Below, one piece after another: positions 13,078 through 18,626 of a stretch of DNA of 38,642 nucleotides. A program made the translations under genes and the position numbers. The DNA comes from Deltaproteobacteria bacterium. GTDB taxonomy: Bacteria > Desulfobacterota > Desulfarculia > JACQYL01. Where the stretch lies: positions 1 to 38,642 of the forward strand of contig JACQYL010000094.1 in the NCBI GenBank assembly GCA_016208165.1, read 5' to 3'. A model generated the notes under the pieces. It ran no database searches, was not told the DNA's origin, and saw only the letters and a list, made by a program, of their open reading frames with translations. The stretch's first letter is position 1. Each line of letters starts with the position of its first letter.

Positions 13078-13442
13078 GGTATACTCTGTATTTCAGGCTT
13101 CCAGGGGCTGTATGTGACGAGGGATCCGCTTGCGATCGCCGACTCCCTGTCGGGAAGAAAGGCCGTCGCGTACGTCTCGGGTTTCAGCCCGGACACCCTG
13201 ACCATACCGGTCCTGACCCTCGCCATCGGCATCGCGGCGGACAATGCCATCATGGCGATTTAAAACGTTCATCGGCAAGGGGAGAAGGGGGGAGACCTTT
13301 ACGCGAGGGAGGACAACCGGCGAGGCATTTCCAGCCGTTACCGAGACACCGTGCGCCGGCTTCCGAGAGAACCGGACGCCTCGGATATCGAAAAGAGAAA
13401 GCAGCGCTGCAAGATCTTCTGGTGGATTGCGTGCCCGATGTG
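13078..13442 (+). pseudogene. remnant of an RND (AcrB/HAE1-type) efflux pump
   Basis: In one frame, 13084-13260 ends with GFSPDTLTIPVLTLAIGIAA followed by DNAIMAI, then TAA (13261), then NVHRQGEKGGD. This matches the membrane motif of AcrB-type pumps (GFSINTLT...LAIGIVVDDAIVVVENVER) with the conserved Glu codon before Asn-Val replaced by a stop. Only about 100 codons of a protein normally over 1000 residues long can be seen, and the frame downstream becomes unrecognisable. One of the two family Asp residues is Asn here. It is a decayed fragment lying between the P460 gene and the selenoprotein gene. Confidence 0.6.
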
Positions 13443-13574
13443 AACGCCAAGCCTTACAGTCAGAGGAATCATGCGGATACACGACAACGGCGATCAAAAT
13501 ACGGACTTCCATCTATTCTTCCAGGCATACTATTTAGGTGTAATAGCTGACATCCAAATCAAGGGAGGTATGCG

Positions 13575-14225
13575 ATGAACCTGCAGGAAGCTATACAAGC
13601 CAAGAAAAACGAGTTTCAGTCATCCGCGCCCAAAGAGATTCTTAAGGTTATGGGTGAGGCTACGAGGAAATTGAAGGAGTCCGGGATCGAGGAGCGGGCG
13701 TTAAAGGAAGGTGATACGGCTCCGGACTTTACGCTGAAAAACGCAGGGGGTGAACTTGTCAACCTGAAGAATTTGCTGAAGGCCGGACCGGTGGTGTTGG
13801 GCTTCTACAGGGGACGGTGGTGACCCTTCTGCAATCTGGAGCTGGAAGCTCTTGAAGAGGCCCACGCGAAAATCAGGTCCTTGGGCGCTTCTTTGGTGAT
13901 GATTTCTCCGCAGACGGAAAAGCACTGCCGGGAGTTTAAGGAAGAAAAGGGACTCAGCATGGAGCTCCTGAGCGATCCCGGAAACCGGGTGGCCGAGCAG
14001 TACGGACTCGTTTACATTTATCCCGGTGACCTGAAAAAGGCCTACCTGCAGTTGGGAATCGACCTCGAAAAGTACAACGGAGATGATTCCTGGAGGTTGC
14101 CCATACCGGCCCGTTACATTATCGACAAGGACCATGTCATCCGATACGTGGTTGCAAACGCGGATCACACCGTCAGGACTGATCCGGAGCATACCATCAG
14201 AGCTCTCAAGGGGATGGTAGGCTGA
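13575..14225 (+). CDS. selenocysteine-containing AhpC/TSA peroxiredoxin-like protein (UxxC)
   Basis: A single frame of 216 codons from ATG 13575 (after AAGGGAGG) to 14225 is broken only by TGA at 13821-13823. The sequence around it is FYRGRW-UGA-PFCNLEL, exactly where AhpC/TSA-like proteins have FYRGxWCPYCNxEL. Reading UGA as selenocysteine gives the active site U83-P-F-C86. The thioredoxin fold extends on both sides (GDTAPDFTLKNAGGELVNL at about 48-66; ASLVMISPQTEKHC near 110; IPARYIIDKDHVIRYV near 180), and both halves keep family length, which argues against a pseudogene. The role would be reduction of peroxides or thiol-disulfide exchange in the cytosol. UxxC peroxiredoxin-like selenoproteins are known in deltaproteobacteria. 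The gene would be called as two broken pieces by standard translation. Confidence 0.88.
13824..13860 (+). promoter_or_regulatory. bacterial SECIS-like hairpin just after the UGA
   Basis: Immediately 3' of the UGA, CCCTTC (13824-13829) can pair with GAAGAGG (13854-13860, one bulged A). An upper 4-bp stem GAGC/GCTC (13839-13842/13848-13851) presents the apical loop TGGAA at 13843-13847, 20 bases after the UGA. Position and a G-containing apical loop fit what SelB needs in bacteria; the fold was drawn by hand. Confidence 0.55.
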
Positions 14226-16281: not shown

Positions 16282-17253
16282 TTATTCCTCTTTGGACGGT
16301 TGCTCCGCTCTCGTCCAACTCGCGTCAGGATCGAATACGTCCATGGCCTGAGCGATGTCCTTCGTGTCTTCACCAAGGTTCTTCTGGTGGATGACTCCCT
16401 CCTGATTCACGATAAAGGTCATGATCCCCGAATTGCCGTATTCGGCAGGATAGGCGACGAGTCCGAAACCGAGGATCATCTTGCCCTGCACCACATAGTC
16501 GAACGCTCCTCCATTGGCATGCTCTCCCTGTTTCTTCAGTATCTTGAAGTAGTAACCGTGGAACGGGGAAAGATCCTCGTTGGCGTAACCTTCCTCCGCG
16601 GCCTGCGCCACCAGTGGTCCGAGAGGACTCGGATCCTCTCCTTCCTTCACTTCCCAGTAGAGTCCATCGTGTTTCCCGTGGGTGCTCACCAGCCGCTCGG
16701 CGAATTCCACGGCCCCCGCGCCCTCCCTGTCCCTGGTCGCGTATTCGTGCTGAGCGTCCACGTAGGCGTGCAGCACATCAATGATATACAGCTCGTTTCT
16801 GCCTATTCTACGGTTCAGGATTTCTTCTCGTCCTTCCCTTGCGTCGAACGCCCACTTGGCATCTGCTTTAACGATCGGGATAGGCATGGGCCAATCGTTT
16901 ACGCCTATATACAGGGTCACCTTGCCCGGGGTTTCCTCCTGGAGCCTGTTTTTCTGTTCATAAGCCTTGAGGAATTTCTCGCGGTTGACCTTGTCCGCCG
17001 CATGATCGCCTGAAGAGACCAGTTCCTCGCTACCGGGCCCAAGAATGGCCGTCATCCCCGGTATGTCGTGACCATGGACCGCAGCCACCAAAGAGGCCAC
17101 TGCTTCCTCCGGTGATGAAAAGCTCTTTTGCGACGTTACCTCCGAAAACGCCGCAGTGGAAGTCCCGAGCACGAGAACTACGGCAGCGATCATGCAGACC
17201 GATACGGGAAGATAGCGCCTGTTTCTGCAAAAAGACCGTGTGATCTTCATCAT
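16282..17253 (-). CDS. DUF2950 family exported protein
   Basis: The 323-residue protein has an N-terminal export signal (basic start, hydrophobic VCMIAAVVLVLGTSTAAFSE at about 19-38). The body matches DUF2950: FSSPEEAVASLVAAVHGHD, NELYIIDVLHAYVDAQHEYA (near 150-170), then FHGYYFKILKKQG and a C-terminal GNSGIMTFIVNQEGVIHQKN (seen as GIMTFIVNQEGV). The family is periplasmic and of unknown function. It starts after GGAGGGG at ATG 17253, with a second ATG next to it. It lies 62 bases behind the DUF3300 gene on the same strand; the two families are frequent neighbours, so they are probably one operon with a shared envelope role. Confidence 0.88.
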   Translation of the reverse strand: MMKITRSFCRNRRYLPVSVCMIAAVVLVLGTSTAAFSEVTSQKSFSSPEEAVASLVAAVHGHDIPGMTAILGPGSEELVSSGDHAADKVNREKFLKAYEQKNRLQEETPGKVTLYIGVNDWPMPIPIVKADAKWAFDAREGREEILNRRIGRNELYIIDVLHAYVDAQHEYATRDREGAGAVEFAERLVSTHGKHDGLYWEVKEGEDPSPLGPLVAQAAEEGYANEDLSPFHGYYFKILKKQGEHANGGAFDYVVQGKMILGFGLVAYPAEYGNSGIMTFIVNQEGVIHQKNLGEDTKDIAQAMDVFDPDASWTRAEQPSKEE

Positions 17254-17315
17254 GTTTTCCCCTCCGCGCCTATTGCGAATTCGCGAACGATTCAGGTAGG
17301 TTCCTTCGATGTTCT

Positions 17316-18626
17316 CTACCTGCGGTGGCCTCCGCTTTGAGAGCCGCCGTGCTGGTAGAAGCCATCCCGCGATCCCCCCGTTTGGCCCCCTGTGCGGTTG
17401 CCTTGAGGTGTCGATACAGTGCTGCGTCGGCTTTCAGCTCCGCGTTCGCCGGCCCTGCGTTCATAGTTCCCGTGGCCGATTCCTCCGAAGGAGGTTTCCT
17501 CTCGCGCAGCGCCGGGTGCTCTTTCCCGTTCCACCCTTTCCCGCGGCTCAAACTGCCTGTTCTGCTCTCTGTAGGTTCTCTGCGACGGTTCGTTCGGTCT
17601 CATATTGTAGTTTCTCTCGGAATGCTCCCTGCGGACGGGTTCGCGTTCCATTCCCTGCCGCCTCTCGTCCCTCTGGTTGCGTTCCTGTTCTCGATACCCA
17701 GGGGTTCTCTCGGGATACCCTCGTTTTTCCCGGTCATCGAAGGATCTTTCCGACCTTCGCTGTCCGAAATGCTCGCTCGTCCTCCTGTCCCTGTAAGCAA
17801 CTCCTCGTCTGTGGTCCGGGTGATGCCGCCAGTAATGCCCGCCGGAGGGATAAACCACGTGGCGCGGGCGATGATACGGCCACCGGTCATAGTCGACGTA
17901 AATATGACGGGCGGGCCAATCGAACCAGCTCCACGAGAAGATTCCGATGCCAATGGAAAAACCGCGGCCGAACACGATATGCCCCCCCGTGACAATCACA
18001 CCGGGGGGGTGATACCAGTACCAGGGCCGATACGAGGGATATCTCCACGAACCATATACGTACAACGGGTTGTACACCGGAACGTAGATCACATCGGGCT
18101 CAGTCGGTTCGATACGGATGTATTCTCTTTCAACGATCACCTTCTGTTGCTGGGTAGTGTTAAGGTTTCCTTGTTCCTCCGCTTTTCTTCGCAACGTCTG
18201 GATGGTCGCCATCACGTCATCCTGTTGAGCCAGATAGGCGTCCCCGAGCGTCGTTGTCTGATCGAGTTTGTCGCTCATGGCGAAGAACACATCCGGAAAA
18301 TGGCCGAGCGATTTTACACTCGGATCCCAGTCCATGTCTTGCAAGGCTCTATCCAGCGCTTCGCCTGTCAGTCCCTGATTTTGGCGCAGCCAGCGTTCGG
18401 CTTCGACCACCTCGAGAGGATACGTCGAGGCCATCAGTATCTCGGCGATCAGCGAATCGGGATACAGCGCTATGGGCGCAAGCATCTGAGCCAGCTCCGC
18501 TTCCGTGAATCCCGGGGCGGAATCGGTCTCCTCCTCCGTGTATTGCGCCGGAATGCCGGCGGGCATCGCCAGCATGCCGATCATCATCAACGCCAACCCT
18601 CCCATGATCATTCGTAGAGATCTCAC
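17316..18626 (-). CDS. DUF3300 family exported protein with Arg/Glu-rich tail
   Basis: The 436-residue protein begins at GTG 18626 after an AAGGAGAGG site. It has a signal peptide ending near residue 28. The DUF3300 domain follows: AELAQMLAPIALYPDSLIAE at about 43-62, then EVVEAERWLRQNQGLTGEAL, WDPSVKSLGHFPDVF and YVPVYNPLYVYG. From about residue 185 the sequence is Trp/Tyr/His-rich, and from about 270 it is a low-complexity Arg/Glu/Gln tail. The domain is found in many proteobacterial envelope proteins of unknown function. It is the first gene of a two-gene unit with DUF2950. Confidence 0.88.
   Translation of the reverse strand: MRSLRMIMGGLALMMIGMLAMPAGIPAQYTEEETDSAPGFTEAELAQMLAPIALYPDSLIAEILMASTYPLEVVEAERWLRQNQGLTGEALDRALQDMDWDPSVKSLGHFPDVFFAMSDKLDQTTTLGDAYLAQQDDVMATIQTLRRKAEEQGNLNTTQQQKVIVEREYIRIEPTEPDVIYVPVYNPLYVYGSWRYPSYRPWYWYHPPGVIVTGGHIVFGRGFSIGIGIFSWSWFDWPARHIYVDYDRWPYHRPRHVVYPSGGHYWRHHPDHRRGVAYRDRRTSEHFGQRRSERSFDDREKRGYPERTPGYREQERNQRDERRQGMEREPVRREHSERNYNMRPNEPSQRTYREQNRQFEPRERVERERAPGAAREETSFGGIGHGNYERRAGERGAESRRSTVSTPQGNRTGGQTGGSRDGFYQHGGSQSGGHRR

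Follow-up and report, generated by a model that had tools for sequence, protein, structure and literature searches.

A Candidate Peroxiredoxin-like Selenoprotein with a Thioredoxin-type UxxC Site

Results

A gene at positions 13575–14225 (plus strand) of the window, by which we mean the whole 38,642-nucleotide stretch of DNA analyzed here, very probably encodes a selenoprotein of the peroxiredoxin-like UxxC group, with an in-frame UGA decoded as selenocysteine. The frame runs for 216 residues, and its lone internal TGA (13821–13823, plus strand) falls at residue 83 within the motif FYRGRW-U-PFCN; there is no further stop or frameshift before the terminal stop, which is itself a TGA (14223–14225). 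The partner cysteine of the U83-P-F-C86 site is encoded at 13830–13832 (plus strand). A putative Shine–Dalgarno sequence, AGGGAGGT (13562–13569, plus strand), was read from the DNA and ends 5 bases before the ATG. As the original prediction anticipated, standard gene calling divides the gene: translation table 11 yields two open reading frames, 13575–13823 (82 residues) and 13881–14225 (114 residues). The joined protein matches PF00578 (AhpC/TSA) across the TGA with 104.4 bits (cutoff 26, E = 5e-30), and each half alone matches the same family over adjoining profile ranges (2–37 and 39–124). Other frames in the window in which a UGA would give a UxxC or CxxU motif all overlap other genes or are without homology support, as judged without frame-by-frame searches.

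The locus is best read as one intact and probably monocistronic selenoprotein gene. A cytochrome P460 domain protein (PF16694; 12436–13008, minus strand) is its divergent neighbor, and a frame upstream (13100–13263), reading IADSLSGRKAVAYVSGFSPDTLTIPVLTLAIGIAADNAIMAI up to a stop, resembles the tail of a gene that is partial or has decayed. Genes for a DUF2950 and a DUF3300 protein, both of unknown function, adjoin each other at 16282–18626 (minus strand). No neighbors in common were seen among seven UGA loci, so the surroundings suggest no operon-based function.

Homologues carry UGA or cysteine at the same codon. The family- and order-level genome sets consisted of the window's own genome only, and the phylum-level set was searched instead. 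Matches were found in 29 of its 395 genomes (own included). Outside the window there are 30 matches, of which 28 carry UGA at the codon in question, one (L112) carries cysteine, and the last is a weak match with no stop. We considered L112 as a TAG-interrupted form and rejected the idea, as it is an ordinary cysteine form (WCPFCS) with the TAG at its end. In the genome collection, 80 homologous loci were found, eight with UGA at the identical codon and the rest with cysteine. Once duplicates and rows outside the extraction pattern had been removed, the comparison set comprised 33 UGA sequences (window included) and 76 cysteine sequences. The UGA homologues span several families and phyla, and chance is excluded because UGA stands at the same codon in 32 distinct sequences besides the window's own. 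Residue 83 exchanges with cysteine only, and alignment places the UGA at the cysteine position of the 76 cysteine homologues. The 3′ half of the gene is intact in relatives with either residue rather than decayed. Residues Arg79, Gly80, Trp82, Sec/Cys83, Pro84, Cys86, Pro112, Asp134, and Arg201 are invariant in alignment A2.

The nearest relative of the window protein, L024, shares 61% identity and also has UGA. Both belong to an eight-row clade composed entirely of UGA sequences (support 100/93), which is nested in a 21-row clade (100/99) of 18 UGA rows and three Flavobacteriia cysteine rows. The latter (L033 and L052) possibly represent losses of selenocysteine to cysteine within the main Sec clade. 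Over the whole tree, the UGA/Cys label requires seven changes, and at least three of these changes are forced by well-supported branches. Several loci are unusual in themselves. L052 holds three family members within 8.6 kb, and genome G419 holds two Sec members, L110 and a UGA copy (L132:1729) with the motif WUVFCN instead of WUPxCN. At L130:947, a UGA form (WUPYCNLELEAL) has its upstream half out of frame and appears to be a frameshifted or decaying Sec copy.

The selenocysteine machinery that the original prediction proposed as a check is present. SelA (E = 4e-149), SelB (E = 1e-114), SelD (E = 3e-108), and a tRNA-Sec with a TCA (UCA) anticodon (Rfam, 77 bits; ARAGORN) were all found in the window's own genome. 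SelD is itself encoded with a UGA, at the customary site (KAAGUASKI). A strong hairpin comes next, its GGGAU loop ∼19 nt downstream of the UGA, an arrangement shared with the window gene (19–20 nt). The selD gene (L018:1434, C58) lies downstream of a YedF-like open reading frame, and its frame is broken in the assembly by a 5-base run of N (L018, 1503–1507). A strong SelA accompanies the UGA form in all nine UGA genomes tested (the eight with UGA homologues and the window's own). Among the 25 Cys genomes sampled, only four have one (G023, G025, G031, and G033).

A SECIS-like hairpin follows the UGA at 13838–13852 (plus strand). Folding gives a stem of six pairs (GGAGCU with AGCUCU), a GGA loop 20 nt after the UGA, and a minimum free energy of about −10.4 kcal/mol, in keeping with the predicted hairpin some 20 bases downstream. 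The published bSECIS model specifies a loop of 3–9 nt, a stem of 4–16 bp, a G within the first two loop bases (PMC13188914, Fig. 2), a spacing of 16–37 nt, and a minimum free energy of −7.5 or lower (PMC13188914). In our own implementation of this model, the window hairpin passes (stem 6, loop GGA, spacing 20, −10.5 kcal/mol), and a conforming hairpin is present in 33 of 33 UGA genes compared with eight of 76 Cys genes; the Fisher p of 1e-20 for this contrast is nominal, as the 33 UGA sequences are related and their independence is overstated. Taken singly, the window hairpin matches none of the Rfam SECIS families and shows no excess of stability over shuffled sequences (z = −0.5), and stability was dropped as stand-alone evidence. 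A null model of synonymous recodings of the window sequence alone was also dropped as too permissive, with 27% of recodings passing the bSECIS model, and a family test was used in its place. Because the window hairpin is unremarkable in stability and synonymous recodings pass this often, the case for a SECIS element rests on the family.

For the family test, we took the register that the window hairpin shows: five pairs, 18–32 to 22–28, counted from the T of TGA. The register is complete in 27 of the 33 UGA genes, whereas random synonymous recoding of these proteins gives a mean of 1.85 and a maximum of 7 in 2000 draws. The proper control for the hairpin is provided by the protein's cysteine relatives, and these show no such signal: three of 76 have the complete register, equal to the null expectation of 3.1. 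In the 23 register-sharing sequences, 88.6% of cells are paired, compared with 34–46% when the register is slid, with the caveat that this set was picked for the register and is biased toward it. Pair 16–34 occurs as CG, GC, and UA in the same 23 sequences.

The predicted structure has a peroxiredoxin fold. An AlphaFold model built from a 31-sequence alignment has a pLDDT of 95.7, and its best matches among solved structures are the AhpE and Bcp peroxiredoxins (Z 23–24, rmsd 1.4–2.1), including AhpE of Mycobacterium tuberculosis (Z 24, rmsd 1.4 over 152 residues). In the model, the protein starts with a soluble-looking N-terminal helical arm. Alignment to ResA places U83-x-x-C86 on the CxxC motif and Pro178 on the second proline of PxP-T-F, which we take to be the cis-proline of thioredoxin folds. 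Alignment to solved peroxiredoxins places Cys86 at the position of the peroxidatic cysteine, U83 at that of the Thr/Ser, and Arg79 at that of the proline, and the distant catalytic Arg (AKRAVFVID of 2ywn) corresponds to Pro178, by alignment and not from coordinates. Where the peroxiredoxin superfamily has Pxxx(T/S)xxC, a motif described as definitive for it (PMC5302317), the window protein has R79-G-R-W-U83-P-F-C86. The original prediction put the UGA at the catalytic cysteine; this holds in the thioredoxin sense, with U83 as the N-terminal residue of the UxxC site, but not in the peroxidatic sense.

Discussion

Could the UGA at codon 83 be something other than a selenocysteine codon? Standard translation does end at 13821, as it would if Cys83 had mutated to a stop and the 3′ half were decayed or drifting. 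Such a pseudogene is barely credible, however, for a frame that has acquired no second stop or frameshift, that retains the invariant Cys86, Pro112, Asp134, and Arg201 beyond the UGA, and whose UGA recurs at this codon in homologues from several families and phyla. An error of sequencing or assembly might be suspected in a draft genome of 142 contigs, but independent assemblies show the identical UGA, two of them (L025 and L026) being labeled chromosomes in their record titles, and we consider an error the least probable explanation of all. Readthrough of UGA occurs in other systems, and the codon could in principle be read as another residue, whether by near-cognate insertion of Trp or Cys or under a genetic code in which UGA is a sense codon. 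This too is very improbable, given that the gene itself terminates at a TGA, that the genome has a complete Sec system, and that the residue exchanges with Cys only. Insertion of selenocysteine thus remains the strongly favored reading, as the original prediction held.

A more serious alternative concerns function: the protein could be the same selenoprotein and yet a true peroxidase, its U83 selenol or Cys86 reducing peroxides. Most families with the peroxiredoxin fold are peroxidases, the nearest structures are peroxidases of the AhpE and Bcp type in fold, Cys86 occupies the peroxidatic position, and Arg79 and Arg201, both invariant in A2, might serve the site. Against this stand the missing superfamily motif, with Arg79 for Pro and U83 for Thr/Ser, the presence of Pro178 in place of the catalytic Arg, and the location of Sec at the Thr position, whereas known Sec peroxiredoxins have TxxU (PMC13188914). 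We regard peroxidase activity as unlikely, although it deserves more weight than any of the nonselenoprotein readings. Because Arg79, U83, and Pro178 stand where a peroxiredoxin site has its Pro, Thr/Ser, and Arg, the sequence makes a thiol:disulfide oxidoreductase the likelier assignment, and the fast peroxide-reactive site that had been predicted is not borne out by the alignment.

On the oxidoreductase reading, the hairpin at 13838–13852 would recruit SelB with Sec-tRNA(Sec), and this complex would decode the UGA at 13821–13823 as selenocysteine to give the 216-residue protein. We infer that the product would combine a peroxiredoxin fold with a thioredoxin/ResA-type site, in which U83-P-F-C86 opens a helix and Pro178 takes the cis-proline position. 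Most likely, U83 would attack a disulfide or a similar oxidized substrate, with peroxide as a possible alternative; Cys86 would then resolve the intermediate to a selenenylsulfide, which a cellular thiol reductant would recycle. Thiol:disulfide exchange through such a selenenylsulfide intermediate seems to us a better guess than peroxidase chemistry by a reasonable distance.

More tentatively, and with somewhat less than even confidence, we suggest that the homologues form a coherent FYRGxWUPxCN subfamily of ∼216 residues with a helical arm, that it has Sec nearly throughout one phylum and has undergone several Sec/Cys switches, and that for want of a curated model its members have been truncated at the UGA or lumped as "Prx-like," with their reaction left undescribed. 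That reaction would be thioredoxin-type chemistry on a peroxiredoxin fold, with the selenol first. Automated gene calling will probably break up or miss the gene, a problem for nearly every detected homologue in the phylum, and a Sec-form model would correct ∼30 annotations among the sampled genomes. The subfamily also lets Sec and Cys be compared cleanly, as natural alternatives in a single active site, where the RNA signal follows the codon, and its Sec occupies the thioredoxin-type position of a peroxiredoxin fold instead of the peroxidatic one.

Several known systems share features with the window protein. The peroxiredoxin-like family cd02970/AhpC-TSA_2, found in an Olavius symbiont (PMC13188914, PMC9312934), is also AhpC/TSA-like with Sec first in its motif, but, compared by description, that motif is UxxS and not UxxC; the window protein matches PF13911 weakly (26.0 bits, cutoff 27). 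SelL-related proteins (NF040769) are likewise PF00578-like with UxxC, and some members from the same phylum are UGA-encoded (L133–L135), but they have the motif FHRHLGULPC and are without an N-terminal helical arm like that of the window protein. Assignment to this group was rejected, with 47 bits against a cutoff of 120 and ∼25% identity to the UGA-encoded members from the phylum. PrxU, the Sec peroxiredoxin, belongs to the same superfamily and has the same fold, but its Sec is peroxidatic (TxxU), whereas that of the window protein is at the Thr position (UxxC); the score against NF040737 is 28.9 (cutoff 270). ResA/TlpA-type oxidoreductases resemble the window protein at the active site, their CxxC aligning with UxxC and their PxP-T-F with Pro176–Pro178. 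These proteins are membrane-anchored and extracytoplasmic, in contrast to the soluble-looking helical arm of the model, and the score against NF002854 (ResA) is 42.8 (cutoff 170). Among NCBIfam models, none matches the window protein at its curated cutoff.

The closest description is that of the peroxiredoxin-like thiol:disulfide oxidoreductase selenoproteins, catalogued under PF00578 with UxxC or UxxU motifs (PMC13188914, Table 1). Such proteins were noted in Deltaproteobacteria as early as 2006 (PMC1794560), and "Prx-like 1" accounted for 225 Sec sequences in ocean metagenomes (PMC2398784). They share with the window protein PF00578, a UxxC motif with Sec first, Cys homologues, occurrence in Deltaproteobacteria, and a predicted oxidoreductase function. 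The catalogue entry is broad (example WP_010940744.1), and the FYRGxWUPxCN subfamily was matched to it by description alone. Judged from its sequence, the window protein fits this description and would add a well-supported member to the group.
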